From Halostagnicola kamekurae (GTDB lineage Archaea; Halobacteriota; Halobacteria; Halobacteriales; Natrialbaceae): DNA of 64,000 nt. Position 1 is the stretch's first letter. Each line of letters opens with the position of its first letter. Both the position numbers and the translations under genes were made by a program. This document shows positions 2,648 through 22,879 of this stretch, in pieces. Under the pieces are notes generated by a model that saw nothing but the letters and a program-made list of their open reading frames with translations, searched no databases and was not told the origin of the DNA. The stretch is taken from assembly GCF_900116205.1 (NCBI RefSeq), contig NZ_FOZS01000002.1:558001-622000 (forward strand). Direction: 5' to 3'.

Positions 2648-3985
2648 TCAGAGCGCGTCGGAGACCTCGCCGAGTACGTCCGTCTCGACGAAGACGACGA
2701 CGTGGTCGCCCGCCTCCACGGTCGTCTCGCCGCGCGGGGTGATCAGTTCGCCGTCTCGAGCGATCGCCCCGATCACCACGCCGTTCGGGAGATCCGCGAT
2801 CACGTCGCGGATTCGGTTGTCGTGGAGGAGACTGTCCTGACCGACTTCGATCTCGAGGACCTCTGCCCGGTCGGACTCGAGCATCGCGATGTTTTCGGTG
2901 CGGTGTGCGTGGGTGAACCGGGTGATCTCCTCGGAGGTGACCAGCCGCGGGTTGACCGCGACGTCGATGCCGACGGTCTCGAAGAGGTCGACGTACTCGC
3001 CGTACTCGACGATGCCGATGGTTCGCTCGACGCCGATGCGCTTTGCGAGCAACGAGACGAGCAGGTTCTTCTCGTCGCTGTCGAGCGCCGCGACGACGAT
3101 GTCCGACTCGTCGATGTGCTCGCGGACGAGAAAGTCGATGTCTGTCGCGTCGCTCTCTAACACCAGCGTGTCCGGCAGACACTCTGCGAGTTCGCGGGCG
3201 CGGTCGTGGTCTTGCTCGATCAGCCGCGGAGAGAGTCCCTCTTCCTCGAACAGTCGGGCGGTTTGATAGCCGATCTCGCTGCCGCCGACGATGACGATCT
3301 CGCTCGCGTCCTCGAGCGTCGGCGTTGGGGTCAACGACCCGGCGAAGCGACGCACGCTCTCGGTGGAGCCGATGACGACGACGGCGTCGCCGGCTTCGAT
3401 GACCGTCTCGCCGGTCGGGATAACGACGTCGCCGTTTCGAAAGAGCGCCGCGAACGTCAGCGATTCGTATCGATCGGCCTTCGCGACCGTGTCGCCGGCG
3501 ATCGGGCTGTCCGGCTCGATTTCGAACTCCGCCATCTGGACGAGTCCGTCCCCGAAGGTATCGACGTCGTGTGCGTTCGGGAGGCCGGCGATCTTCACGA
3601 TCGTCTCTGCGGTGTGGAGGTTCGTACAGACCATGAAGTCGACGCCGAACGCGCCCTCGGCGTGCTCCCAGGTCTCTAACAGCGTCGTGTCCTTCACGCG
3701 AGCGATCGTGAACGGGTCGTCGAGGGTTTTGGCCGCGCCGCAGACGACGATGTTCGTCTCGTCGATGTCGGTGCTCGCGATGACCATATCCGCTGCCTCG
3801 ACGTCCGCCTCCACGAGAGTTCCCCGCGTCGTTCCGTCGCCCTCGATGGCGAGTACGTCGAGCGAGTACGTGAGCGATTCGATGCGCTCTTCGTCGGTGT
3901 CGACGACGACGACCTCGTGGTCGTCAGCGAGCCCCGCCGCGATGTTCGAACCGACTTCGCCCGCTCCGACGATGATTACGCGCAC
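2648..3985 (-). CDS. trkA: Trk potassium uptake regulator TrkA (two RCK_N/RCK_C modules)
   Basis: 445 aa peripheral membrane protein that gates a TrkH-type K+ channel in response to NAD(H)/nucleotides. It has two tandem modules. Module 1 starts at residue 1 with MRVIIVGAGEVGSNIA (intact GxGxxG Rossmann loop) and has an RCK_C domain at about 130-215. Module 2 starts near 225 with the glycine loop IVIVGGSEIG and has a second RCK_C domain to the C-terminus. The start codon is GTG (3985-3983). No trkH lies in the window, so its partner is encoded elsewhere; haloarchaea often carry several trkA paralogues. Monocistronic here, with a 166-base gap before the thiolase gene. Confidence 0.93.
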   Translation of the reverse strand: MRVIIVGAGEVGSNIAAGLADDHEVVVVDTDEERIESLTYSLDVLAIEGDGTTRGTLVEADVEAADMVIASTDIDETNIVVCGAAKTLDDPFTIARVKDTTLLETWEHAEGAFGVDFMVCTNLHTAETIVKIAGLPNAHDVDTFGDGLVQMAEFEIEPDSPIAGDTVAKADRYESLTFAALFRNGDVVIPTGETVIEAGDAVVVIGSTESVRRFAGSLTPTPTLEDASEIVIVGGSEIGYQTARLFEEEGLSPRLIEQDHDRARELAECLPDTLVLESDATDIDFLVREHIDESDIVVAALDSDEKNLLVSLLAKRIGVERTIGIVEYGEYVDLFETVGIDVAVNPRLVTSEEITRFTHAHRTENIAMLESDRAEVLEIEVGQDSLLHDNRIRDVIADLPNGVVIGAIARDGELITPRGETTVEAGDHVVVFVETDVLGEVSDAL

Positions 3986-4168
3986 GCGAGCGCCACCTGC
4001 AACATACGAACGGCTATTCGACGGAGGTGTAAGTCCGTTTCCATCGTCGAGGTCGCATTTTGTCGGCTCGACAAGAGTTGGATTTCGTCGACTTGACGAG
4101 AGCCGCGAGGTCCCGGTTCGTCGGTTCCGAGCGGTACTGAACGGTACCGATCGGTCGAATCCGGTCGG

Positions 4169-4699
4169 TCAGGGCATCTCGTGAACCGTCAGTTCGACGT
4201 CTCGTTGCTCCCCTTCGATATCGGCGACCAGCCGCCTGACGACGCCGCGTGCTTCCTCGAGAAGTCGCGGCTGTACCTTCCCGACGACCCAATCGAGCGA
4301 GACGAACGGCGGCAGCGAGATCGCGTTTCCGTCAGCCGAGTGAGGGTCGTAGACCGCCTCGAAGTAGATCCGGCTGGCCGTTTCGACCCCGTCCGGGGCC
4401 GCCTCGGGCTCGGCCTCGACCCGCCACGTGCCGCGGGCGTCGAGGTCCTTGCGAAGCTCCCACTCGAGCGTGTGGGGATCGTCGACGGCGACGACCTCCG
4501 AGCGGGCGGTGTACCCGAGTTTCCACCAGGTGAGCCGAAGGTCGTAGACCGAGCCAACGCCGTTCTCGTCGCCCTCGCGGCGCTTGCGAACGGACTCGAG
4601 GTGCTCCGTGTATCGGTGATAGTCGGTAAAGGAGACGACGAACGGGAACACGTCCGCCGGCGGCCGGTGGGCGACGGTGCTGAGGAGGATCCTGTCCAC
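4169..4699 (-). CDS. SRPBCC-family (START/polyketide-cyclase-like) protein
   Basis: 176 aa. Helix-grip fold signature: an N-terminal beta strand, then RPPADVFPFVVSFTDYHRY, a middle GVGSVYDL strand and DPHTLEWEL, matching the polyketide cyclase/dehydrase group that binds hydrophobic ligands. The start is GTG at 4699; no nearer ATG restores the conserved N-terminus. It is divergent from the FAD protein at 4859, leaving a 159-base shared control region. The ligand and role are unknown. Many haloarchaeal genomes carry such single-domain proteins of unassigned function. Confidence 0.82.
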   Translation of the reverse strand: MDRILLSTVAHRPPADVFPFVVSFTDYHRYTEHLESVRKRREGDENGVGSVYDLRLTWWKLGYTARSEVVAVDDPHTLEWELRKDLDARGTWRVEAEPEAAPDGVETASRIYFEAVYDPHSADGNAISLPPFVSLDWVVGKVQPRLLEEARGVVRRLVADIEGEQRDVELTVHEMP

Positions 4700-4830
4700 G
4701 ATCCGGCTATGGCACCGCCGAACGTAAGGATTTTCGAATGGTCGCGACCGGTCGTTTGCGCCGTTAGTTGGCTATCCGCGCCCGTCAGTTCGAGCGATCC
4801 ATTCCGTCGATCAGCCCGTTTCACTACATT

Positions 4831-4838
4831 TCTATATG
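4831..4838 (+). promoter_or_regulatory. TATA box of the FAD oxidoreductase gene
   Basis: TCTATATG centred about 24 bases before the ATG at 4859. This is the spacing expected for a leaderless haloarchaeal transcript that starts at or next to the start codon. Confidence 0.45.
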
Positions 4839-4858
4839 CCGGCCGAGAACACCGGCGC

Positions 4859-5596
4859 ATGCGAGACATCTGTATCGTCGGCGGCGGCGTCGCCGGACTC
4901 GCCGCGTCGATCTTCACCGCTCGAGCGGGACTGGACACCATCGTAGTCGACGGCGGAGAATCGATCCTCGCGCGCAACGCCAGCCTCGAGAACTACCCGG
5001 GCTTTCCCGACGGGGTCGACGCCCGGCGGTACCTGCGTCTCGTCCACGAACAGGCACAGAGCGCGGGCGTCACCGTCGAACTCGGGCGCGTCTCGAGCGT
5101 CGAGCGGATCGAGGAGACGGATCCAGAATCGGGGTTCGTCCTCGAAACCGACGGCGGGGACCCGATCGAGGCCGAGCGGGTGATCGCGGCCTCGTGGTCG
5201 GACAGCGAGTACCTGGTTCCCCTCGATGTCGGCCGTATCCAGCGCGGGAGCAAACACTACGTGAGCGTCGACGATGACGGCCGAACCGCCGTCGAGGGCG
5301 TCTACGCGGCGGGACGGGTCGCCGGCGAGCCACACCAAACGATCGTCGCCGCCGGCCACGGCGCGAAGGTCGCGCTTTCGGCGATCCACGATTCGGACGT
5401 CAACTTCTATCACGACTGGGTCGTCCCCGAGGGCTATTTCACCGGCCGCGGTCGGGACGTGCCACCGGGCTGTGAGGAAATCGACGACGAGGAACGACGA
5501 GAACGTGACGCAGCGGCCCGAGAGACGATCCTCGAGGCCTTCGCGGAACCGCTCGCGGAGAAACCGACGATGCATCCCAGCGTCGACCGGGAGTAA
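4859..5596 (+). CDS. Small FAD-dependent NAD(P)-type oxidoreductase, thioredoxin-reductase-like
   Basis: 245 aa. The N-terminal MRDICIVGGGVAGLAAS is a classic GxGxxG dinucleotide site, followed by E/D-rich VVDGG and the NYPGFPDG segment seen in thioredoxin-reductase relatives. The C-terminal GVYAAGRVAG...IVAAGHG is the second FAD contact. At 245 aa it is well below the ~310 aa of thioredoxin reductase: the central NADPH-binding domain and its CxxC pair are absent, so it cannot be a normal TrxR. Haloarchaea commonly carry this compact form with unknown substrate. I chose the ATG at 4859 because the frame remains open upstream only as antisense to the SRPBCC gene. Confidence 0.85.
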   Translation: MRDICIVGGGVAGLAASIFTARAGLDTIVVDGGESILARNASLENYPGFPDGVDARRYLRLVHEQAQSAGVTVELGRVSSVERIEETDPESGFVLETDGGDPIEAERVIAASWSDSEYLVPLDVGRIQRGSKHYVSVDDDGRTAVEGVYAAGRVAGEPHQTIVAAGHGAKVALSAIHDSDVNFYHDWVVPEGYFTGRGRDVPPGCEEIDDEERRERDAAARETILEAFAEPLAEKPTMHPSVDRE

Positions 5597-6984: not shown

Positions 6985-8217
6985 ATGCTCGAGGGAGTCA
7001 ACGTCGCGCTCGGAGTGTCCGGATCGATCGCCGCCGTCAAAACGGTCGAACTCGCCCACGAGTTGCGACGCCGGGGCGCGAGCGTTCGCGCCGTGATGAC
7101 CGACAGCGCTCGCGGCATCGTCCACCCGTGGGCGCTCGAGTTCGCCACCGATCGCGACGTCGTCACCGAGATCACGGGCGGCGTCGAGCACGTCGACCTC
7201 TGCGGCTACGACGGCTGGGCCGACGTCCTGCTGATCGCGCCGGCGACCGCGAACACGGTCGGAAAGATCGCCGGGGCGGTCGACGACACGCCGGTGACGA
7301 CCTGCGCAACCACCGCCCTGGGCGCGGACACGCCGGTCGTGATCGCCCCCGCGATGCACGAACCGATGTACGACCACCCGGGGGTTCTTGAGGCGATCGA
7401 CACCGTCGAAGACTGGGGCGTCTCGTTCGTCGATCCGCGGATCGAAGAGGGGAAAGCGAAGATCGCCAGTGAGGCGGCCATCGTCTGCGAGACCGCTCGA
7501 GCCACGGGCGAGCGGCCGCTCGAGGGCGAACGCGTCGTCGTCACCAGCGGCGCGACGAGCGAGCCGATCGATCCCGTCCGCGTGCTGACGAACCGATCGT
7601 CGGGACGGATGGGGCGGGCCGTCGCGCGGGCCTGTTACGTCCATGGTGCGGACGTGACGCTCGTCCACGGCCACGTCGGACCACACTCGCTCGAGGGGTC
7701 GTCGCCGGTCGCCGGTCTCTCGGCGGGCGAGGACGGGGTGGCGCTTCCGTATGCGAACGTCGAGCAGGTCGAAACCGCCGCGGAGTTGCTCGAGGCGACG
7801 CTCGAGGCGTGTTCGGCGGCCGACGCGCTCGTCTCGACGGCGGCGATCGGCGACTACACGCTCGAGCCAAGCGAGGAGAAGCTTCGTTCGGGGGCGGAAC
7901 GAACCCTCGACCTCGAGCCGACGGCGAAGGTTATCGACGAAGTGAGAAAGAGCCAGCCGACGCTGCCGATCGTCGGCTTCAAGACCGAAACGAGCGGCGA
8001 CGACGGGGCGATGATCGAAGCGGCTCGAGAGACGTTAGCGCGGGCGGGCCTGGCGTTCGTCGTCGCCAACGACGCGAGCGTGATGGGCTCCGACCGAACG
8101 CGGGCGCTGCTCGTCCACGAGGAGAACGCGGCCCGCTACGAGGGGACGAAAGCCGACCTCGGCGCGGAGATCGCCGACTCGCTCGCCGTCGTGCTCGGGG
8201 ACGACCCTTCGAGCTAA
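6985..8217 (+). CDS. coaBC: Bifunctional phosphopantothenoylcysteine decarboxylase/phosphopantothenate-cysteine ligase
   Basis: 410 aa enzyme joining cysteine to 4'-phosphopantothenate and decarboxylating the product in CoA synthesis. The N-terminal CoaC flavoprotein half (about 1-185) shows LGVSGSIAAVK, the ATANTVGKIA segment and PAMHEPMYDHP, the archaeal form of the PAMNxxM substrate motif. The CoaB half begins near 188 with VVTSGATSEPIDPVRVLTNRSSG (split here by eye at the NxSSG clamp) and retains AAIGDY and the KVIDEVRK lysine region. Fused CoaBC is normal for archaea. A CTTAACATA TATA-like element sits about 24 bases before the ATG, consistent with a leaderless transcript. Confidence 0.95.
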   Translation: MLEGVNVALGVSGSIAAVKTVELAHELRRRGASVRAVMTDSARGIVHPWALEFATDRDVVTEITGGVEHVDLCGYDGWADVLLIAPATANTVGKIAGAVDDTPVTTCATTALGADTPVVIAPAMHEPMYDHPGVLEAIDTVEDWGVSFVDPRIEEGKAKIASEAAIVCETARATGERPLEGERVVVTSGATSEPIDPVRVLTNRSSGRMGRAVARACYVHGADVTLVHGHVGPHSLEGSSPVAGLSAGEDGVALPYANVEQVETAAELLEATLEACSAADALVSTAAIGDYTLEPSEEKLRSGAERTLDLEPTAKVIDEVRKSQPTLPIVGFKTETSGDDGAMIEAARETLARAGLAFVVANDASVMGSDRTRALLVHEENAARYEGTKADLGAEIADSLAVVLGDDPSS

Positions 8218-8319: not shown

Positions 8320-8886
8320 ATGGATAAGTTACAGCGGTCGTTACTCGAGGCCCCGATCATCGAGAAAGACGGCTACCACTACTTCGTCCATCCGATCAGC
8401 GACGGGGTGCCGAAACTCGATCCGGGCCTGTTACGTGAGATCGTCATCCGGATCATCCGAAAGGCGAAACTCGAGGAGGTCGACCGCATCGTCACGCCGG
8501 CGGCCATGGGGATTCACATCTCCACCGCCGTCTCGCTGATGACTGATATCCCGCTTACGGTGATTCGAAAGCGAGAGTACGGACTCGAAGACGAAGTCGC
8601 GATCTCCCAGCAGACCGGCTACTCGGAAAACGAGATGTACATCAACGACGTTCGCGAGGGCGAACGCGTCCTCGTCCTCGACGACGTGCTCTCGACCGGC
8701 GGCACGCTGGCCGCGGTCCTCGAGGCGCTCGACGAGATCGGCGCGGAGGTCGTCGACACGGTCGCGGTCATCAAGAAGGTCGGCGGCGAGAACAAGGTCG
8801 AAGACGTCGATCACCACGTCAAAACCCTCGTCAACGTCGACGTCGTCGACGGGGAGGTCGTGATCGTCGACGAAGACGGCGACTGA
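8320..8886 (+). CDS. hpt: Hypoxanthine/guanine phosphoribosyltransferase (archaeal HGPRTase)
   Basis: 188 aa cytosolic purine-salvage enzyme that transfers ribose-5-phosphate from PRPP to hypoxanthine/guanine (some haloarchaeal members prefer adenine). Start [16 protein letters not shown], then the AAMGIH segment, a flexible-loop region with REYGLEDE, the PRPP motif [14 protein letters not shown] and a typical VAVIKKVGG. Length is normal. I chose the ATG at 8320 over an in-frame GTG at 8278 because the protein family begins exactly here and a TATA-like ACTTTTACT lies about 28 bases upstream. Confidence 0.93.
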
Positions 8887-8972: not shown

Positions 8973-10937
8973 GTGAACTCAGAAAACGATCGGTCAGGGG
9001 ACCGTCCGACCCGTCGGCAGCTGCTCGGTGCCACTGGTTCGGTGCTTCTCTCGAGTGCGGCGGGCTGTCTCGACGACGATAGCGACGCGATTTCGTTTCC
9101 GCTCTCGGTCCGGCTCGAAGTCGACGCGGACAACACCGATCGCATCGCCTGGACCGCCGCGATCGCCCAGGTGATGGAGCAGACGGGCTACTTCGACGTC
9201 GAGATCGAAGAGTACGAACTCGACGATTTCCTCGAGCGCATCTTCCAGCCGAAATACGCGGCCAAGGGTAACGTTCCGTTTCTCAGCATCTCGGGGACGT
9301 TCAACCCGGAGAGTTACTGCGATCCGCTTCACGGAACCGAAAATCAGGGGCAGTGTTGCAACCTGAACGGGCTGGGGTACGACGAACTCGACGCGATGAT
9401 CGACCAGGCCCGCTTCGGCACCGAGGTCGTCGACAATCCGGCGCTTCGCGCGCGCCGGTACGACGAGATCTGGCACGAACTGGCCGAGTTCCGCGGCAGT
9501 TCCGTTATCACCTACATCACCGAAGAGTACGTCAGGAACACCGACGTCCGTGGTTTTTCGCCGTACCCGTTCGTAGAGGGGACGCTCGACTACGCGCTTT
9601 ACTCGCCGTCAGATCGCGTCCTCACCTGGATCGATCGAGACGCCGCCGGCGCAACCGGAGACGAGTGGTCGGCCCACCGAACGGGCGGCACGCTCCGATA
9701 CGGAATGGACGCGAACATCGAGTCCTTCGACCCGCCCTACAGCACGGATATTTACTCCACGTCTGCACAGTCGCTGCTGTTCGAGGGCCTGACCACCCTC
9801 GACGCCGAGGGAAACGTCTTCCCCTGGCTCGCCAAGGGATACGAGTTAGTCGACGTTCAGGACATCGACCGGCGCGCGTACGAACCGTACATGCGCCCCG
9901 TCCCGACCGACGACGAGGGCGTCCTCGAGTTCGACGGCGATGGCGACGTTCAGGCCATCGTCGTCCACCCTGACGACGACCGGATCGCGGACGATGAGGT
10001 TAGCGTGCTCACGCCCGCGGACGCGGCCGAAGCAGTCGAAGCGGGCGTCTACGGGATGCAGTATCGCTACGAGTTACACGAGGGCGTCACGTTCCACAAC
10101 GGCGAGGAACTGACCGCCGATCACGTCGTCGCGACCGCAAAGCGCTACGAGAACTCCGACGTCGCCGCACAGACGTTCGACTCGGTCCTCCACGTCGAGG
10201 CGGTCGACGAGTACGTCGTCGACATCTACGCGCAGGTGCCGGACGCCGAAGCCGAGCGGGAGCTCCCGACCTTTCGGATTCACACCCTCGAGCAGGCGGA
10301 GTTGCCCCCCAACGGGATCGATCCGCTTCAGGACACGCCGCCGATCGGGACCGGCCCATACGAGTTCGAGACCTTCGAGGACGAACGGTATTTCCGGGCC
10401 CGCAAAACCGACGACTACTGGCTCGAGCGGAAGGGTATCGACGCCCTCGAGTGGTACGACGGCCCCGAGTCGTTTCCGGCGGGCCCCGTCGTCGACGCGG
10501 TCGACGTCGAAATCATCTCGGGCGATTCGACTCGCTCCGTCGCGCTCCAGAACGACGAAATCGACCTCACGTTCGGGCTCGTCTCCTCGACGCTCGAAGC
10601 CTACGAGGACGACGACGGCTACGTCGTCGACTCGATCCAGGGCGGGGGCTATCAGTTTTTCCAGTACCCCGTCACCGTCGAGCCGTGGGACGACGCGCGA
10701 CTTCGCCGGGCCGTCAATCACCTCGTTCCGCGAAAGCGGATCGTCGAGGAGCTCCTGGACGGCTGGGGCGAGCCCGCGTGGACGATGCTGCCGAAAATAG
10801 CGCGCGAAACCGGGACGGCGGACTACGAGGCCCTCGAGGCGGATCTCCGGGAGAAAAACGCCTTCGATACGGAGGCCGCGATCGAGTTGATCGAAACGGT
10901 GATCGACGACCGGGGGTACGATTCGAACGTCCAATGA
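8973..10937 (+). CDS. ABC transporter substrate-binding lipoprotein, dipeptide family, circularly permuted
   Basis: 654 aa exported lipoprotein. It has a Tat signal (RPTRRQLLGATG) and lipobox SAAGC with the lipid-anchored C32. The fold is SBP_bac_5 (DppA/OppA type), but the order is permuted. Residues 42-222 match the C-terminal 180 or so residues of the canonical protein at 20864-22879 (shared landmarks: a CCN motif, a RYDE/AYDEFW helix, NTDV-GF, YALY-P-D). Residues 237-654 then start with TGGTLRYGMD, the normal mature N-terminus of this family, and end where the canonical protein would enter its PVDVVLET strand. Nothing is lost or duplicated. The start is GTG; the stop overlaps the next permease by 4 bases. 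Confidence 0.9.
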   Translation: MNSENDRSGDRPTRRQLLGATGSVLLSSAAGCLDDDSDAISFPLSVRLEVDADNTDRIAWTAAIAQVMEQTGYFDVEIEEYELDDFLERIFQPKYAAKGNVPFLSISGTFNPESYCDPLHGTENQGQCCNLNGLGYDELDAMIDQARFGTEVVDNPALRARRYDEIWHELAEFRGSSVITYITEEYVRNTDVRGFSPYPFVEGTLDYALYSPSDRVLTWIDRDAAGATGDEWSAHRTGGTLRYGMDANIESFDPPYSTDIYSTSAQSLLFEGLTTLDAEGNVFPWLAKGYELVDVQDIDRRAYEPYMRPVPTDDEGVLEFDGDGDVQAIVVHPDDDRIADDEVSVLTPADAAEAVEAGVYGMQYRYELHEGVTFHNGEELTADHVVATAKRYENSDVAAQTFDSVLHVEAVDEYVVDIYAQVPDAEAERELPTFRIHTLEQAELPPNGIDPLQDTPPIGTGPYEFETFEDERYFRARKTDDYWLERKGIDALEWYDGPESFPAGPVVDAVDVEIISGDSTRSVALQNDEIDLTFGLVSSTLEAYEDDDGYVVDSIQGGGYQFFQYPVTVEPWDDARLRRAVNHLVPRKRIVEELLDGWGEPAWTMLPKIARETGTADYEALEADLREKNAFDTEAAIELIETVIDDRGYDSNVQ

Positions 10938-11887
10938 CGCTCCGACGGTTCGTCCTGCGGCGGATACTGCTGATCGTCCCAGTCCTGCTCGGCGTCTCGA
11001 TGCTCACGTTCGCGCTCGTCTCGCTGACGCCCGGCGATCCGGTGAGTCGAATGGTCGCGCAGAACCCGAGCGTGACCGCAGCCGAGGAGGCCCAGCTCCG
11101 TGCCCAGTACGGCCTCGACGGCCCTGTCTGGCGGCGGTACCTCACCTGGCTCGGGAACGTCGCGACCGGCGACTTCGGCGTGGTGTACGGGACGGATCGC
11201 CCGGTTTCCGCGGTCGTCGGGAGACGATTGCCCGAGACCGTCGCGCTGGGCGTCTTCGGCTGGCTGTTCGCGGTCGGAATCGCGATCCCTACGGGGATCT
11301 ACGCCGCGGTTCGAAAGGGGACGGTGGGCGATACGGTCAGCCGCGTGTTCGCGCTGTCGGGAGTGTCGATCCCGAACTTCTGGCTCGGTCTCCTGTTCGT
11401 CCTCGTGTTCGTCCTCTGGGCGGGGTGGTGGGACGTTCGGCCGCCGCGGGAACCACTCACCCACCCGGAAACGCTGTGGCACCTGGTGTTACCCGGCGTG
11501 ACAATCGGAACGGCGACGTGCGCGTCGATCATGCGCGTCCTCCGCACGTCGATGGCCGAGGAACTGAACGAGGAGTACGTAACCGCCGCGCGTGCAAAGG
11601 GCCTCCCCGAACGTCAGGTCGTCTGCAAGCACGCGCTCCGGAACGCGCTGAGCGCGGTCGTCACCGTCGTCGCGACGCTGACCGCGGGCATCGTCGCCGG
11701 GGCCGTCGTCGTCGAGGTCGTCTTCTCTTGGCCAGGGCTCGGCCGCGAACTCGTCGCGGCGATCCACGGCCACGAGATCAACCTCGTCGTCGCGATCACG
11801 CTGCTCACCGCCGTCGCCGTCGTCGTCTGTAACCTCCTCGCGGACATCATCTATGCCGTGCTCGATCCGAGGATCAGATATGACTGA
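10934..11887 (+). CDS. ABC transporter permease, DppB/OppB type
   Basis: 317 aa inner-membrane subunit. The N-terminal FVLRRILLIVPVLLGVSMLTF and LTPGDPV are the DppB hallmarks. About six membrane segments follow, with the cytoplasmic EAA loop EYVTAARAKGLPER that docks on the ATPase. It overlaps the binding-protein stop by 4 bases (ATGA), so it is translationally coupled. It resembles the permease at 19877-20833. No ATPase gene follows in this set, so energy must come from ATPases elsewhere, possibly those at 16145-18854 (inference). Confidence 0.93.
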   Translation: MTLRRFVLRRILLIVPVLLGVSMLTFALVSLTPGDPVSRMVAQNPSVTAAEEAQLRAQYGLDGPVWRRYLTWLGNVATGDFGVVYGTDRPVSAVVGRRLPETVALGVFGWLFAVGIAIPTGIYAAVRKGTVGDTVSRVFALSGVSIPNFWLGLLFVLVFVLWAGWWDVRPPREPLTHPETLWHLVLPGVTIGTATCASIMRVLRTSMAEELNEEYVTAARAKGLPERQVVCKHALRNALSAVVTVVATLTAGIVAGAVVVEVVFSWPGLGRELVAAIHGHEINLVVAITLLTAVAVVVCNLLADIIYAVLDPRIRYD

Positions 11888-12956
11888 GGGGCGCGCCGAC
11901 CGCGGTCGGATTCGAATCCGCGGCTTCGAGTCAGAGCGAGACGAGACTCGAGGCGATTCGGCCGATGGGACGGGGAGCGCTCGAGACACCTCACTCGAGC
12001 GGCACTCGAACGCCCGGTCCGAACACGCCTCGCGCTGGCGGCGCGGCCTTTCGCGGTTCGCTCGAAACCGCGAGGCCCTCGTGGGGCTCCTGATCGTCTG
12101 CTCGATGTCGCTCGCATCGATCCTCGCCCGCCCGATCGAACTCTGGGGCGTGCCCGTCCAGCCCGTCTCGCTGGCACCGTATCCCCCCTCGGATATGCTG
12201 TGGCTCACGCAGGACGTCTCGGCGTACGACCCGCCGTCGGCGGCCCATCCGATGGGTCTCGACGGCAACGGACGCGACGTGTTCTCGCGGGTCCTCGTTG
12301 GCGGGCGGTACAGCATCTCGATCGGGCTCGTCGTCGTGACGATCACGAGCGCCATCGGGATCGCGTACGGCTCCGTCGCGGGGTATTACGGCGACTGGGT
12401 CGACGAAGCCCTGATGCGCGTCGTCGACATGATCCTCGCGTTTCCCGGCCTCGTGCTGGCGCTGGTCGTCGTCGCGCTATTCGGCAACGGCTACTGGCAA
12501 CTGGTCCTCGCGTTCTCGCTTTTCGGCTGGGCGAGCTACGCTCGAGTCATCCGCGGGGAAGTGCTCGAGGTAAAGGAGACGGAGTACGTCGTCGCGGCCA
12601 AGGCCCTGGGCGCCAGCGACCGGTCGGTCCTGTTCAGACACATCGTTCCCAACGCCGTCCCGCCGGTCGTCGTCCTCGCGACGCTCAACATCGGGACGGT
12701 CGTCATCGGCGTGGCGTCGCTCGGCTTTCTCGGGCTCGGCCTCCCGCCTGCGACCGCCGAGTGGGGGACGATGCTCGAGGGCGCTCGCGACGCGATCGTG
12801 CAGGGCCCCGGCGGCGGGATTCACTGGTGGGTGACGGTCTTCCCGGGCGGCGCGATCTTCGCGTTCGTCCTGTCGATAAACCTGATCGGCGACGCGATCA
12901 CCGACGCCCTCGACGCCCGCGAGACCGACTCGAGAGCGCGGTTCGAGCGGCGGTGA
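11880..12956 (+). CDS. ABC transporter permease, DppC/OppC type
   Basis: 358 aa. A long polar N-terminal arm (about 60 residues, RGRIRIRGFESE at its start) precedes the first membrane segment. HPMGLDGNGRDVFSRVLVGGRYSISIG is the conserved DppC region (quoted here as family signature HPMG...GRDVFSR), with the EAA loop ETEYVVAAKALGASDRSV later. I chose the ATG at 11880, overlapping the upstream stop by 8 bases; an ATG at 11853 would deepen the overlap. The N-terminal RGRIRI(R/S)GFE motif is shared with the DppC at 18854-19870, confirming that the two transporter sets are related. It is the last gene of the left set. Confidence 0.92.
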   Translation: MTEGRADRGRIRIRGFESERDETRGDSADGTGSARDTSLERHSNARSEHASRWRRGLSRFARNREALVGLLIVCSMSLASILARPIELWGVPVQPVSLAPYPPSDMLWLTQDVSAYDPPSAAHPMGLDGNGRDVFSRVLVGGRYSISIGLVVVTITSAIGIAYGSVAGYYGDWVDEALMRVVDMILAFPGLVLALVVVALFGNGYWQLVLAFSLFGWASYARVIRGEVLEVKETEYVVAAKALGASDRSVLFRHIVPNAVPPVVVLATLNIGTVVIGVASLGFLGLGLPPATAEWGTMLEGARDAIVQGPGGGIHWWVTVFPGGAIFAFVLSINLIGDAITDALDARETDSRARFERR

Positions 12957-16144: not shown

Positions 16145-17518
16145 TCAATCGTCGGCGAGTGTTTCGTCTTGTCTGGCTCCGGCGGTTCCCGCCTGTCGGT
16201 GCGCGTCCCCGTCCTCGTAGCGAAGACAGTCGATCGCGTGGGTCCGCGAGAGGTCGACGGACGACGGCTCGGTCGTCTCACACGGCGAGACGAACCGCTC
16301 CTCGAGCGTCGCCGCCGCGGCGGCGCTGTCGACCGAGTGCAACTCGTCGATCGAACTCGCGAGGAGTTCCTCGGCGGCGGGGTCCGATAGCGGGTCCGGG
16401 ATCCCGAACTCCGAGCGAACGAGTTCGTCGATGTCCGCCCTCGAGAGCGCAGTCACGTCCTCTCGGGCCGACTCGTCGGTTATCGTCACGAGCTCGTCGA
16501 CGGCGTCTGCGTCCTCGGCGCGGAGCTTGAAGCTTAGCACCGACCGCCACGCCGACTGCTCGAGGTCGAACTCCTCGGGCGGGATGACCCGGGGACACCG
16601 CGTGTGGAACCGACAGCCCGAGGGCGGATCGATCGGTGACGGGACCTGTCCCTCGAGGAGGATCTTCTCGCCGTCCCAGAGCGGGTCCGGTTCGGGGATC
16701 GCAGAGAGCAGCGCCTCGGTGTAGGGGTGGTACGGCTCCGAGAACACCTCCTCGGTGGTCCCGACTTCGGCGAACTCGCCGAGGTACATGACCGCGATCC
16801 GGTCCGCGATGTGTTCGACGACGCTCAGGTCGTGGGCGATGAAGATATAGGAGAGGTCGAACTCCTCCTGGAGGTCTTCGAGCAGGTTCAGGATCTGGGC
16901 CTGGACGCTCACGTCGAGGGCGCTCACTGGTTCGTCACAGACGATGATCTCGGGATCGACCGCCAGCGCTCGGGCGATGCCGATCCGCTGGCGCTGTCCG
17001 CCGGAGAACTCGTGGGGATACCGGTGGACGTGGCTCGGATTGAGGCCGACGGTCTCGAGCAGTTCCTGAACGCGCTCGTTGCGCGCCTCGCCGTCGGCGA
17101 TGTCATGGATGTCGAGCGGTTCGCCGATGATGTCCCCGACCGTGAGACGCGGGTTCAGACTCGAGAACGGGTCCTGAAAGATGTACTGGAGGTCCGTCCG
17201 GAGGTCGCGCAGTTCGGAACTCGAGAGATCCGTGAGTTCGACCTCCCGCGGCTCGCCGGTTTCCGTCCGTCTGGTGTACGTGATCGATCCCTCGGTCGGT
17301 TCGATGAGTCGCAGGAGCGATCGGCCGAGCGTCGTCTTCCCGCAACCGCTCTCGCCGACGACTCCCAGCGTTTCGCCGGGGTACAACTCGAGGTCGACGC
17401 CGTCGACCGCCTTGACGAGTTCCGACCGGCCGAGTAGCGTGTCGACGAAGCCGTTGGTGTTCTCGTAGTGTTTCGTCAGTCCGGTCGACCGCAGGATCGG
17501 CCGCTGCTCGTTAGTCAT
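16145..17518 (-). CDS. Oligopeptide/dipeptide ABC transporter ATP-binding protein, OppF/DppF type
   Basis: 457 aa. Walker A GESGCGKT at 55-62, Q-loop [13 protein letters not shown], signature [15 protein letters not shown], Walker [13 protein letters not shown], and the H-loop IAHDLSVV. The C-terminal oligo_HPY region begins normally ([10 protein letters not shown]), but about 100 acidic residues separate its second Cys from the third (SPCE), where the family normally has only a short spacer before the last two Cys (these cysteines hold a 4Fe-4S cluster in bacterial DppD/DppF). ATG 17518 overlaps the upstream stop by 8 bases; a GTG at 17527 is the alternative start. Last gene of the transporter operon. 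Confidence 0.93.
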
Positions 17519-18854
17519 TGTGTTCACCCGGAATCCGTTCGTTCGGGACGTGTTCGCTCTCGACGGTGACGCTGTACTCGAGGCCCTCCTCTAAGTCGCC
17601 CGTGTACTCGAGACACTTCGCCGACCGTCCCCGCCCGTCGGCGTCGTCGAACTCGACCAGTCGGGGCTCGGTCTGCTGGCAACTTCGCTCCGCGTATGGA
17701 CAGCGCGGGTGGAAGCGACAGCCCGACGGCGTCTCGATCAGGTCTGGCATCGTCCCGGGAATCGTCTGGAGTCGGTCGCGGTCGTCGCCGATGCGCGGAA
17801 TCGAACTCATCAGGCCGACGGTGTAGGGATGCTTCGGGTCGTAGTACAGCTCCTCGACCGGCGACTTCTCGACCGGTTGGCCCGCGTACATCACCATCAC
17901 CCGATCACAGAGCTCGGCGACGACGCCGAGGTCGTGCGTGATGAGCTGGACCGCGGTATCGAACTCGTCGGTCAACTCCTCGAGCAGGTCGAGGATCTTC
18001 GCTTCGGTCGTCACGTCCAGCGCCGTCGTCGGCTCGTCGGCGATGATCACGTCGGGATCACAGGAGAGCGCCATGGCGATGACCGCCCGCTGTTGCATGC
18101 CGCCGGAAAACTCGTGCGGGTAGTCGCTGTAGCGGTTTTCGGCGTCCGGAATGCCGACCGTGTCGAGTAACTCGATCCCCCGCGTCTTCGCCGCTTCGTC
18201 GTCGTAGTCGAGGTGGTGTCTGATCGCCTCGGCGATCTGCTCGCCGACGGTGTAGACAGGGTTGAGCGCGGTCTGGGCGTCCTGGAATATCATCGCAACG
18301 TTGTTTCCACGGAGTCGCCGAACCGCCGCCTCCGGCGCGCGGAGCAACTCCACGTAGTGGGTCTCCCCGTCGTGTACGATGAAGTCCTCCTCGCCGATCA
18401 GCCCGAGGTCGACCGCGTACCCCCGGTCGACGACGTTTCGCATGTCGAGTTCGCCGTCGGCGTGGAGTCGGTGCAAGTCGGCTCCCTCGTGCTCGAGATT
18501 ACCGGTCAGGTCCGCCCCCGAAACGCCGCGCTGCTCGAGTCGGTCGATGACATCGTCGAACGACGACTCGCGTCGAAGGCGTTCGACGTCGACGACGCTG
18601 TCCGGGTAGGACTCCTCGAGCGATTCGACGGTGTCCCCATCGCAGAACCTGATCGAGCCGCTCTCGATCTCGCCGGGGCTCTCGATGAGACGCAATAGCG
18701 ACAGTGCGGTCACGCTCTTTCCCGCGCCGCTCTCGCCGACGACGCCGAACTTCTCGCCGGCTTCGATCTCGTAGGAGAGGTCGTCGACGGCCGTCACGAC
18801 GCCTTCCGAGGTGTAAAACGACACCGTTAGACTCTCGACCTCGAGCAGCGCCAT
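17511..18854 (-). CDS. Oligopeptide/dipeptide ABC transporter ATP-binding protein, OppD/DppD type
   Basis: 447 aa. Walker A GESGAGKS at 40-47, signature [15 protein letters not shown], Walker [14 protein letters not shown]-loop ITHDLGVV, and the C-terminal [13 protein letters not shown] with later Cys residues of the cluster motif. Odd feature: the Q-loop ([12 protein letters not shown]) comes about 145 residues after the Walker A Lys instead of the usual 50 or so, because an acidic insertion of about 95 residues (about 75-175) lies between them. The start ATG at 18854 shares one base with the permease stop (TGATG), so the longer open frame upstream is only a shadow of the permease. Confidence 0.93.
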
Positions 18855-19870
18855 CAGCCGCCACCTCCGCGGCCGACGTCGCCGACTTGCGTGTCGAGCG
18901 CGTCGTTGATCGCGTCGCCGATGACGTTCATGGCCATGACGAACAGGAAGATCATCAGGCCGGGAAAGACCGTCGCCCACCAGTACCAGGTCCCGCCCGC
19001 GCCCGTCGCGAGGGTGTCGCGCTCGCCGTCGAGCATCGTTCCCCACTCGGGCGTCCCGGGGTCGAACCCGAGGCCGAGAAAGCCGAGAGCGGCGACGCCG
19101 ATGACGACGGTGCCGACGCTGAGGGTCGCCTGGACGACCACCGGTGCGATCGCGTTCGGAATGATGTGGCGCAACACCACCGATCGGTCTCGCGCCCCGA
19201 GTGCTTTCGCAGCCATCACGTACTCGTTCTGTTTGACCTTGAGGATCTCCCCTCTGATAATACGTGCGTACGACGCCCAGCCGACCACTACGAACGCGCC
19301 GACGAGCGGCCAGAACCCGCCGCCGAACAGGGCGACGAGAACCAGCGCGAGCACGAGCGCGGGGAACGCGAACACCAGATCGAGCACCCGCATCAACACG
19401 GTATCGACGCGGCCGCCGAAGTATCCAGCGGCGCTTCCGTAGAGCACGCCGACGACCGAGGCGATCACGGTCACGACGAGTCCGATCGAGATGCTGTACC
19501 GGCCGCCGACCATCACTCGAGAGAAGATGTCTCGGCCCAGCCGATCGGTCCCCATCAGGTGGGTCGCAGACGGCATTTCGTGGGGACCGGCGACCGCCGA
19601 TTCCGTCGGGTCGAACGGCGCGAGCGAGAGCGGTTGCACGGTGACTCCGAAGACGGTCCACGGGCGAGCGACCAGCGCGGCGACCGCCATCAGCACGACG
19701 ATCACGATGCTCGCGAGCGCGAGTCGGTCCCGCAGGAGTCGGCCGACGATCCGGTGGAGTATCCCTTCCGGTTCGGTGTACTCGTCCTCGCGAACGCCCG
19801 TCGATTCGTGTTCTTCGATGCGTTCGGTCTCGAATCCCGAGATCCGTATTCGTCCTCGTTTTGTTGACAT
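18854..19870 (-). CDS. ABC transporter permease, DppC/OppC type
   Basis: 338 aa with a polar N-terminal arm (RGRIRISGFETE) and about six membrane segments. MGTDRLGRDIFSRVMVGGRY (20 residues) is the DppC signature. The EAA loop reads NEYVMAAKALGARDRSV. It follows the DppB gene with a 6-base gap and overlaps the ATPase start by one base. Closely related in sequence and arm motif to 11880-12956. Confidence 0.93.
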   Translation of the reverse strand: MSTKRGRIRISGFETERIEEHESTGVREDEYTEPEGILHRIVGRLLRDRLALASIVIVVLMAVAALVARPWTVFGVTVQPLSLAPFDPTESAVAGPHEMPSATHLMGTDRLGRDIFSRVMVGGRYSISIGLVVTVIASVVGVLYGSAAGYFGGRVDTVLMRVLDLVFAFPALVLALVLVALFGGGFWPLVGAFVVVGWASYARIIRGEILKVKQNEYVMAAKALGARDRSVVLRHIIPNAIAPVVVQATLSVGTVVIGVAALGFLGLGFDPGTPEWGTMLDGERDTLATGAGGTWYWWATVFPGLMIFLFVMAMNVIGDAINDALDTQVGDVGRGGGG

Positions 19871-19876
19871 AGGTTG

Positions 19877-20833
19877 TTAATATTCGTCCCTGATTCGCGG
19901 ATCGAGCACCGCGTATACGATGTCTGCAAGCAAGTTAGCGAGTACGATGACGACCCCGGTCAGGAGGGTGATCCCCATAATCAGGTTCATCTCTCTGAGC
20001 TGGATCGCCGACACGAGTTCCTGGCCGAGACCCGGCCAGGAGAACACGTTTTCGACCACGACCGACCCGGAGACGAGCCCCGCGGTCAGGAACGCTGCAA
20101 CGGTCGTGACGGAAATCAGCGAGTTTCGAAGCACGTGTTTGAGGATAACGGTCCGTTCGGGGAGGCCCTTCGCACGCGCGGCGGTCACGTACTCTTTGTT
20201 CAGTTCCTCGGCCATCGACGTGCGCATGATCCGCATCACGTTCGCCGCTGCAGCCGTCCCGATCGTCACGCCCGGCAGGATCAACCACCAGAGCATCTGT
20301 GGGGAGAGCAACCCGGTCTGTGGGTCCAGCGTGGGAAACAGGTTGAACTGGACGGCGAAAACAGCCATCAGCATGAGCCCCAGCCAGAAGTTCGGAATGG
20401 AGATCCCCGAGAGCGCGACGAATCTGCTGGCGGCGTCGCCGAGTTGGTCCTTGTTGACCGCCGCGTAGATCCCGCTCGGGATCGCGATCGCGATCGCGAA
20501 TATCCAGCCGAACGCCCCGAGAACGAGCGTTTCGGGCAGTCGAGCCCAGATGACCGCTCCGGCATCCCGACCTGAGGAGTAGACCTCGCCGAAGTCGCCG
20601 GTCAAGACGCCTCGCATCCAATCTATGTACTGCACCCAGATCGGGTCGTTCAGGCCGAACTCCTCGCGGAGACGGACGGCTTCCGCGGCCGATACGTTGG
20701 GGTTAGAGGCGACGAGTTGGCTCACGACGTCGCCCGGTGCGGCGTGCATGAGCCCAAACGTCACCACCGAAACCCCGATGAGGACCGGGATGGAGGTTAC
20801 GATTCGCCGTGCGATGTACCGTTGCATACTCAT
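19877..20833 (-). CDS. ABC transporter permease, DppB/OppB type
   Basis: 318 aa. An N-terminal RRIVTSIPVLIGVSVVTFGL and the APGDVVSQLVASNP segment identify DppB. The EAA loop is EYVTAARAKGLPERTV. Two possible ATGs (20833 MSMQRY and 20827 MQRYIARR) differ by two residues. It lies about 30 bases after the binding protein in the same operon and is a clear paralogue of 10934-11887. Confidence 0.93.
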   Translation of the reverse strand: MSMQRYIARRIVTSIPVLIGVSVVTFGLMHAAPGDVVSQLVASNPNVSAAEAVRLREEFGLNDPIWVQYIDWMRGVLTGDFGEVYSSGRDAGAVIWARLPETLVLGAFGWIFAIAIAIPSGIYAAVNKDQLGDAASRFVALSGISIPNFWLGLMLMAVFAVQFNLFPTLDPQTGLLSPQMLWWLILPGVTIGTAAAANVMRIMRTSMAEELNKEYVTAARAKGLPERTVILKHVLRNSLISVTTVAAFLTAGLVSGSVVVENVFSWPGLGQELVSAIQLREMNLIMGITLLTGVVIVLANLLADIVYAVLDPRIRDEY

Positions 20834-20863: not shown

Positions 20864-22879
20864 TTATCGATCGAGGTAGATGAGCTGTTCATCTGCGGGG
20901 TTGTACAGCGCGTAACTCAGCAGCATCTGCGTCTGCGGGTGGGCGTTGAATCCGACGACGTCCGTGTTCGTCGTGCCGGTGTTCAACGAGTAGTCGATGA
21001 TCGTGTTCGCCATCATGTCGGCGTACTCCGGCCAGAACTCGTCGTAGGCCTGTCGGCGAGCATCCTGATCCTCGGCGACTTCGACCCCGTATCGACACCC
21101 GCGCATCTGATCGACGAAGTCCTCGGGCAGGACTCCCTCCGCGAAGAAGAAGTTACAGCAGCCGTTGTAGTTGTCGGGGTCGGTGATCGCTTCGACGAAC
21201 CCGTGTGGATCCGGCGTCCCCGCGAGGCCGATTATGGCAGGAGCGTTGCGCTCGGAACTGTCCGTCCGGGCGTCCTCCTGGTAGAGGTCGACGGTCCAGT
21301 CGCCGAGCGGCGCCGGCGTTTCGAGTTCGGCGTTGAACAGGTCGGTCTCGTCCAGTTGATCGACGATGAGTTGCACCTTGTCGATCCGCGCTTCGTCGTC
21401 GGCGTTCGTCTCGAGAACCACGTCGACGGGCGTCTCGACGTCGGCGTCATCGAGAAGCGACTGGGCGGCATCGACGTTCGGTTCGACGTTGTACGCCCAG
21501 TCCGAATCCACGATTTCGTTGTACGGCTGGGAGGTCCCCAGATCGGCCGCGGGCTCCGGAAACGGGACCTGTGCGGGGTCGCCCCACCCCTGCGCGACGA
21601 TATCGACGATCTGCTGGCGTGGGATAAGGGCGCTCACCGCCTGTCGAACCGCCCGTTCGGAAAACGCGCCACCGGGGTCGGTGTCGTCCATGGGGAACTG
21701 CATGAACTGGAAGCCGAGGGCCTCGGTCGCGGAGACGACGTACTCGTCCGACGTCTGGAAATTGTTGCGGGCTTCGGAGGGGAGTTCGTAGGCGACGTCG
21801 ATGCTGCCGTCCTCGAGCGCGTTGGATCGACCGGATCCCTGCTCGACGAAACGGATGTTGATCTCGTCGATGACTGGCCCCGCCGGGAAATCGCTCGGAC
21901 CGTCGTACCACGGGATGTTCTCGAGGCCGACCGACTCGACCCAGTAGTTGTCCGTCCGCTCGAGGCGCAGTTCTTGACCGCCCTCGAACTCGGCGACCTC
22001 GTAGGGGCCGGTGCCGATCGGCACCCGGTCTTCGTTGATTCGCGGGTCGAGTTCGCCGGGCGGGACGTCGAAGTGCTCCGAGGGGAACACCACGGGTGGT
22101 AACTCGAGGAACGCTGCGGCGTCGGCTTCCTGGGCGTAGAGTTCGAACTGATAGCCGTCGGCCCCGTCGGGCGCTTCGGCGTGCAGGAAACTATCGTAAT
22201 ACTGCCCCTGATTGTTCGAACCGACGTACCTGTCGTAGGACCGAACCACGTTCTCGGCGGTGAGTTCCTCGCCATTGTGGAACTCGATTCCTTCGTGGAG
22301 TCGTCCCTCGACTCGGACGCCGAAGACACCGTCCGCGACGGCGGCGGCGGCCTCGTTGCGTGTCAACACGCGAATCGATTCCCCCGATTCTGCGGGAAGA
22401 TCGTCCGGATGTTGCATCAAGACGAGGTTGGTGTCGTCCTCGAGTTCGAACACTGGGACACCGTCTTCGACTTCGGCGGGTTCGATCTCGATCATATAGT
22501 CCTGATAGTCGACGACGCTGACGTCGTTGGCCTCGCTGGCTTCGTACTCCGCGGCCAGCCACGGCTGGGCCTCGGCGTCGGCGTTGATCTTCAACAACCC
22601 GTCGTAGACGGCGTTTAGCACGACCGTGTCTTCGGCCTGGGTGCTCTGTGCCTGGTCGTAGTCCGAAATACCGTTTCGCGGGATCGCGAACTCGAGGGTG
22701 CCCCCCTCGACGATCTCGTCGATATCGATTTCGTTGCGCTCTAGGGCCTCGTCGATGTCGGCTTCCTCGCCGTCGCCGCCCAGACAGCCTGCGACACTGG
22801 CGATTCCTGTCGCCGCAATCCCACTGAGAACGCGGCGTCGGTCGAGTACTGGTTCGCGTGAGTCGATTTGTGAGGTCAT
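20864..22879 (-). CDS. ABC transporter substrate-binding lipoprotein, dipeptide family (canonical order)
   Basis: 671 aa. Tat signal DRRRVLSGIAATG and lipobox SVAGC, so it is exported folded and lipid-anchored. Canonical SBP_bac_5 order: GGTLEFAIPRN after the linker, LHEGIEFHNGEELTAENV in the middle, GTGPYEV, and a C-terminal lobe ending NTDVVGF and YALYNPADEQLIYLDR. It is the first gene of the complete operon SBP-DppB-DppC-DppD-DppF. Its existence beside the permuted relative at 8973 makes the permutation readable within this window. The ligand (peptide, sugar or other) cannot be told from sequence. Confidence 0.94.
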   Translation of the reverse strand: MTSQIDSREPVLDRRRVLSGIAATGIASVAGCLGGDGEEADIDEALERNEIDIDEIVEGGTLEFAIPRNGISDYDQAQSTQAEDTVVLNAVYDGLLKINADAEAQPWLAAEYEASEANDVSVVDYQDYMIEIEPAEVEDGVPVFELEDDTNLVLMQHPDDLPAESGESIRVLTRNEAAAAVADGVFGVRVEGRLHEGIEFHNGEELTAENVVRSYDRYVGSNNQGQYYDSFLHAEAPDGADGYQFELYAQEADAAAFLELPPVVFPSEHFDVPPGELDPRINEDRVPIGTGPYEVAEFEGGQELRLERTDNYWVESVGLENIPWYDGPSDFPAGPVIDEINIRFVEQGSGRSNALEDGSIDVAYELPSEARNNFQTSDEYVVSATEALGFQFMQFPMDDTDPGGAFSERAVRQAVSALIPRQQIVDIVAQGWGDPAQVPFPEPAADLGTSQPYNEIVDSDWAYNVEPNVDAAQSLLDDADVETPVDVVLETNADDEARIDKVQLIVDQLDETDLFNAELETPAPLGDWTVDLYQEDARTDSSERNAPAIIGLAGTPDPHGFVEAITDPDNYNGCCNFFFAEGVLPEDFVDQMRGCRYGVEVAEDQDARRQAYDEFWPEYADMMANTIIDYSLNTGTTNTDVVGFNAHPQTQMLLSYALYNPADEQLIYLDR

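Follow-up and report, generated by a model that had tools for sequence, protein, structure and literature searches.

A SBP_bac_5 substrate-binding protein with an apparently circularly permuted chain at the haloarchaeal hpt-dpp locus

The gene P0001 at positions 8973..10937 (+) of the analysed stretch of Halostagnicola kamekurae DNA (64,000 nucleotides, hereafter the window) very probably encodes a functional, membrane-anchored substrate-binding protein (SBP) of a Dpp/Opp-type ABC importer, the chain of which is circularly permuted. Few binding proteins are documented to have been circularly permuted as a whole in nature, and most of these lack a closely related unpermuted form. In the present case, related species carry canonical and permuted forms of about 55% identity at one and the same locus, and at least three changes of order, with differing cuts, are well supported. 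Owing to these close pairs and repeated changes, the origin of the permutation, its folding cost and the anchor-bearing lobe become testable. Found in dozens of species and arisen several times independently, the permutation represents a natural experiment on how far re-wiring of a chain is tolerated.

Chain order and conservation of the permuted protein

P0001 is a single open frame of 654 amino acids that runs from a GTG at 8973 to a TGA at 10935-10937. Residues 1-39 (8973..9089, +) carry a Tat-type signal (RRQLLGATG) and a lipobox (AAGC, Cys32), and R14, R15, G31 and C32 are invariant in seven permuted orthologues. The C segment, which corresponds to the canonical C-terminal part, follows directly (residues 40-222, 9090..9638, +; assigned by segment matches) and contains the lobe-II strand PLSVRL, the CCN patch, the R-Y-D-E helix, NTDV.GF and YALY.P. 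In alignments with relatives, a 15-residue linker (residues 223-237, 9639..9683, +) bridges the former C- and N-termini. The N segment, matching the canonical N-terminal and middle part (residues 238-654, 9684..10934, +), includes the motifs GGTL, FHNGEELT, IGTGPY and AVNHLVPR and ends after the AAIELIETV helix. The new termini lie in the loop between an A-x-E-L-L-x-E helix and a P-x-x-V-x-L strand.

The PF00496 (SBP_bac_5) profile matched P0001 with 157.8 bits (curated cut-off 32.4, E 5e-46). This was the only Pfam match and spanned just residues 361-640, an example of how family profiles built on the collinear order can report only a part of permuted proteins. Profiles of three segments (N1, N2 and C) each matched once, in the order C-N1-N2. 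Solved SBP_bac_5 members show a collinear N-to-C order that P0001 does not have, and it was therefore filed as a permuted variant. AlphaFold2 runs on P0001 with shallow alignments of 7 and 9 rows gave pLDDT values of 38 and 36, respectively. A search of viral contigs gave no relatives.

A preliminary description of the sequence had proposed that the C-terminal lobe stands ahead of the N-terminal part, with the cut directly before a P-x-D-V-x-L strand, the signal placed in front of the new N-terminus and the named motifs distributed accordingly. All of these features were recovered when the segments were aligned separately with canonical proteins, the cut preceding a strand of the pattern F/P-L-x-V-x-L. 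As comparison it had used the SBP_bac_5 paralogue P0002 of the same window (20864..22879, -, 671 amino acids, identified as an ORF and by segment matches). Residues 238-653 of P0001 match 60-486 of P0002 (36% identity, E 5e-87), and residues 40-222 match 482-672 (29% identity, E 9e-25), in swapped order relative to the N segment. P0002 is canonical in order, as described. However, it lies on the minus strand and is a distant paralogue, with 34% identity to rotated P0001, and nearer canonical forms exist. In the canonical protein L021, residues 238-650 of P0001 align with 89-497 (57% identity) and residues 40-223 with 496-679 (46%). The cut leaves neither a gap nor a repeat, and the C segment of L021 runs to the stop codon. 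After rotation, P0001 aligns end to end with the canonical proteins L081 and L088 over 595-596 residues at 54-55% identity. These alignments support the reading of P0001 as an entire SBP_bac_5 protein that has undergone a clean circular permutation in nature.

An alternative would be a two-domain protein, in which an unrelated C-lobe-like domain precedes a truncated SBP and no true permutation has occurred. A similar acquisition from another gene was raised by the authors who described TpMglB-2 (PMC4990184). For P0001 we regard it as highly improbable: taken together, the C and N segments span the canonical chain exactly once, the genomes with the nearest canonical relatives are the same for both, trees of the two segments give the same canonical neighbours, and the rotated protein keeps the 54-55% identity noted above.

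The preliminary description had also named a search of haloarchaeal proteomes for the same order as a check. Full-length collinear matches to P0001, each in one open frame, were found in 36 of the 391 sampled Halobacteria genomes (our count of match rows), and another search yielded further ones. The permuted order occurs in independent genomes at 50-95% identity, among them Natronorubrum bangense JCM 10635 (NZ_CP031305, titled as a complete genome), Halobiforma and Natronolimnohabitans. In close permuted pairs, dN/dS was 0.13-0.20 for the N segment and 0.12-0.14 for the C segment, which indicates that both halves are kept by selection. The linker evolves fast, with values of 0.22-0.94. An assembly error, a frameshift or fused gene pieces could mimic a permutation, and the preliminary description had listed such an artefact as its refutation. 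This explanation has next to no probability. The gene is one open frame with a signal peptide, hpt upstream and an ATGA-coupled dppB downstream, the same order recurs in many independent genomes including that of N. bangense, and the dN/dS values of 0.12-0.20 speak against an artefact. An assembly error or a pseudogene can thus be ruled out.

The hpt-SBP-dpp locus and the proposed function

Upstream of P0001, synteny identifies a dfp/coaBC homologue (6985..8217, +) and an hpt-like phosphoribosyltransferase gene (8320..8886, +), the latter conserved as upstream neighbour in most loci of the permuted families A and B (see below) that reach that far. Downstream, ORFs and synteny place a DppB-type permease (10934..11887, +), the ATG of which overlaps the SBP stop codon (ATGA), and a DppC-type permease (11853..12956, +). 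The canonical system of the window occupies 16145..20833 on the minus strand, with DppB at 19877-20833, DppC at 18854-19870, DppD at 17511-18854 and DppF at 16145-17527. In the window, the permuted operon contains dppB and dppC and has no adjoining ATPase genes. The only ATPase pair (D/F) near it is that of the convergent canonical operon (16145-18854). The permuted importer therefore probably shares this D/F pair.

The missing ATPase genes directly downstream in loci of the Halostagnicola type could also be taken as a sign that transport has been given up and the permuted protein now serves as a receptor or scavenger. We consider this very unlikely, as dppBC directly follow and overlap the SBP gene, and in the Natronorubrum and Halobiforma loci (L036-L039) D and F come after B and C as well.

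Flanking genes were surveyed by tblastn, and some loci show no hpt in the stretch covered. The order dfp(coaBC)-hpt-SBP-dppB-dppC(-dppD-dppF) surrounds the long permuted proteins of family A (for example L006-L015 and L035-L040). The same order is seen around long canonical proteins (for example L021-L023, L025-L027 and L081) and around the short permuted proteins of family B (for example L041-L043, L046-L054 and L056). Within the genus of the window itself, the protein at the hpt-dpp locus is permuted in four genomes (G000 and G002-G004) and canonical in another (G001; L026, G001:C3). The hpt-SBP-dppB-C(-D-F) arrangement is hence one conserved locus, at which the SBP is canonical or permuted depending on the species, even in one genus, and it offers the best comparison of the two orders. 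The constant hpt neighbour gives a weak hint at purine-related uptake.

In the reading of P0001 as a permuted, transport-competent SBP, the old N- and C-termini would be joined by the short linker, and new termini would have opened in the helix-strand loop. Judged from its sequence, the protein should fold as the usual two-lobe Venus flytrap, bind its ligand in the cleft and hand it to DppBC. The lipid anchor would now sit on the lobe in which the cut was made and not on the lobe with the old N-terminus, with the core unchanged; in haloarchaea, it has thereby passed to the other portion of the chain. The permutation may have arisen when the SBP gene was duplicated in tandem and the copies fused in frame, after which the first copy lost its N segment but not the signal peptide, and the second copy its C segment. 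The one piece of support for such a duplication and fusion is that the linker retains a part resembling the canonical N-terminal spacer (DLSDLQEGGTL). In relatives of P0001 the linker reads ...TDLSDLQEGGTL, similar to the canonical spacer VDFADLQEGGTL. A tandem-fusion intermediate was not seen among the proteins profiled.

Other permuted families and the number of origins

When the three segment profiles were applied to all ORFs, 83 distinct proteins showed the order C-N1-N2, 50 the order N1-N2-C and one the order N2-C-N1; as these proteins were collected through their similarity to the queries, the proportions are no census. The permuted proteins fall into family A (long, P0001-like), family B (~560 amino acids, P0003-like) and family C (~580 amino acids, P0005-like). 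The cut in A and C follows an A-x-x-L-L-x-x-A helix, whereas in B it lies one helix earlier, so that this helix forms the new N-terminus. Compared with the solved canonical chain 5U4O, P0003 aligns as two swapped pieces (253-544 with 41-332, and 71-213 with 354-490).

A second permuted SBP_bac_5 paralogue is present in the genome of the window, outside the window itself (L004, G000:C4:424639-425967); it is family C-like and lies in a 647-amino-acid frame. In another genome, a family B SBP is encoded in two adjoining frames of 276 and 343 amino acids, split approximately at the junction of the old termini (L115, G210:C5:155017-156583). Either the gene is broken, or the protein naturally consists of two chains.

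The N2-C-N1 order is found in L044 (complement 2905-4909, G074:C138), which is cut in a variable insertion. An hpt-like gene (a homologue of only 48% identity) lies upstream, and dppB, C and D lie downstream. It constitutes a further topology resting on one incomplete metagenome-assembled genome (G074), and no further N2-C-N1 protein was found among the ORFs profiled. The new termini lie in the helix-strand loop in A and C, one helix earlier in B and in a variable insertion in G074.

Alphaproteobacteria likewise have proteins of the family C order, namely those of Nitratireductor (WP_113156578.1) and Maritalea (WP_117397031.1). The permuted alphaproteobacterial SBP_bac_5 genes L176 (3902-5500) and L177 (3713-5323) are similar to haloarchaeal family C. 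L176 aligns with the canonical chain 5ISU as two swapped pieces (211-523 with 27-337, and 50-173 with 359-477). With the Nitratireductor protein as query, a single place in each of 51 plasmid records covered 80% or more of the query. Among the matches listed (40 of the 51 records), all were single pieces, including those from Neorhizobium, Microvirga, Roseomonas, Ketogulonicigenium and many haloarchaea. The likeness to family C suggests exchange between the domains or an old permutation. By our reading of the sequences, the two alphaproteobacterial permuted proteins have signal peptides without a lipobox, and anchoring alone therefore does not explain the permuted order. The preliminary description had treated the permutation as a single case; its scope proved too narrow, since the order recurs in many genomes, with at least three cut sites, and also outside the haloarchaea.

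A, B and C came out separately in a carefully built tree (41 rotated sequences). AU tests rejected A+B as one clade (p 3.9e-39) and B+C as one clade (p 2.8e-11), and weakly split two subgroups of family B (p 0.033). Because all solved relatives that were matched are canonical, the canonical order was counted as ancestral. On this basis, there is good support for the C-N order having originated at least three times among the families. A single ancient permutation for all families, with the canonical order restored repeatedly, would agree with the cut loop common to A and C. It carries very little likelihood, as the AU tests reject both A+B and B+C as single clades, the cut of family B lies one helix earlier, reversions would be required in many canonical lineages and all matched solved family-5 chains are canonical. 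The idea that every permuted family goes back to one event was rejected.

Within family A, five canonical proteins (L021, L023, L081, L086 and L088) fall among the permuted ones, and a single permuted clade is disfavoured (AU p 0.025). The resolution of a DppB tree was too weak to settle the number of origins in this family. One origin is favoured by the similarity of the family A linkers to each other (..TDLSDLQEGGTL). A reversal is disfavoured by the canonical-looking spacer (VDFADLQEGGTL) that most canonical proteins within the family retain, L081 less so. It seems unlikely, with a small but real chance, that the haloarchaeal hpt-dpp locus has seen repeated changes of order, among them a reversion of permuted proteins to the canonical order (canonical forms of G073, G287, G241, G097 and G364, nested in family A) and the N2-C-N1 form of G074. 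If true, the SBP_bac_5 fold would be topologically labile through a recurring duplication-deletion route.

Comparison with known binding proteins

P0001 resembles the SBP_bac_5 or Cluster C proteins (DppA, OppA, NikA, AppA) in its PF00496 match, its lipoprotein signal, its dppBC neighbours and the presence of all segments. It differs in the order of the chain, which is N-C in these proteins and C-N in P0001. No solved or named SBP_bac_5 member with the C-N order was found among solved structures and in the open-access literature searched. Engineered circularly permuted binding proteins are used in biosensors, so SBPs can tolerate permutation; those proteins are man-made, whereas P0001 has evolved. 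TpMglB-2 was the one natural precedent found in the open-access literature, and no permuted SBP_bac_5, OppA or haloarchaeal case was found beyond it.

TpMglB-2 (Tp0684) of Treponema pallidum, designated 'Type Ic / Cluster Bc', is a natural circular permutation of the tethered binding protein of an ABC importer that retains ligand binding and closure (PMC4990184). Its first three N-lobe strands have moved to the C-terminus, and the permuted parts are poorly conserved (PMC4990184). Both TpMglB-2 and P0001 are thus naturally permuted ABC binding proteins. However, TpMglB-2 belongs to Cluster B (sugar), whereas P0001 matches only SBP_bac_5 in Pfam. Instead of three N-lobe strands moved back, P0001 has the C-terminal third in front, and in contrast to the poorly conserved permuted parts of TpMglB-2, it has canonical homologues of 54-57% identity at the same locus.
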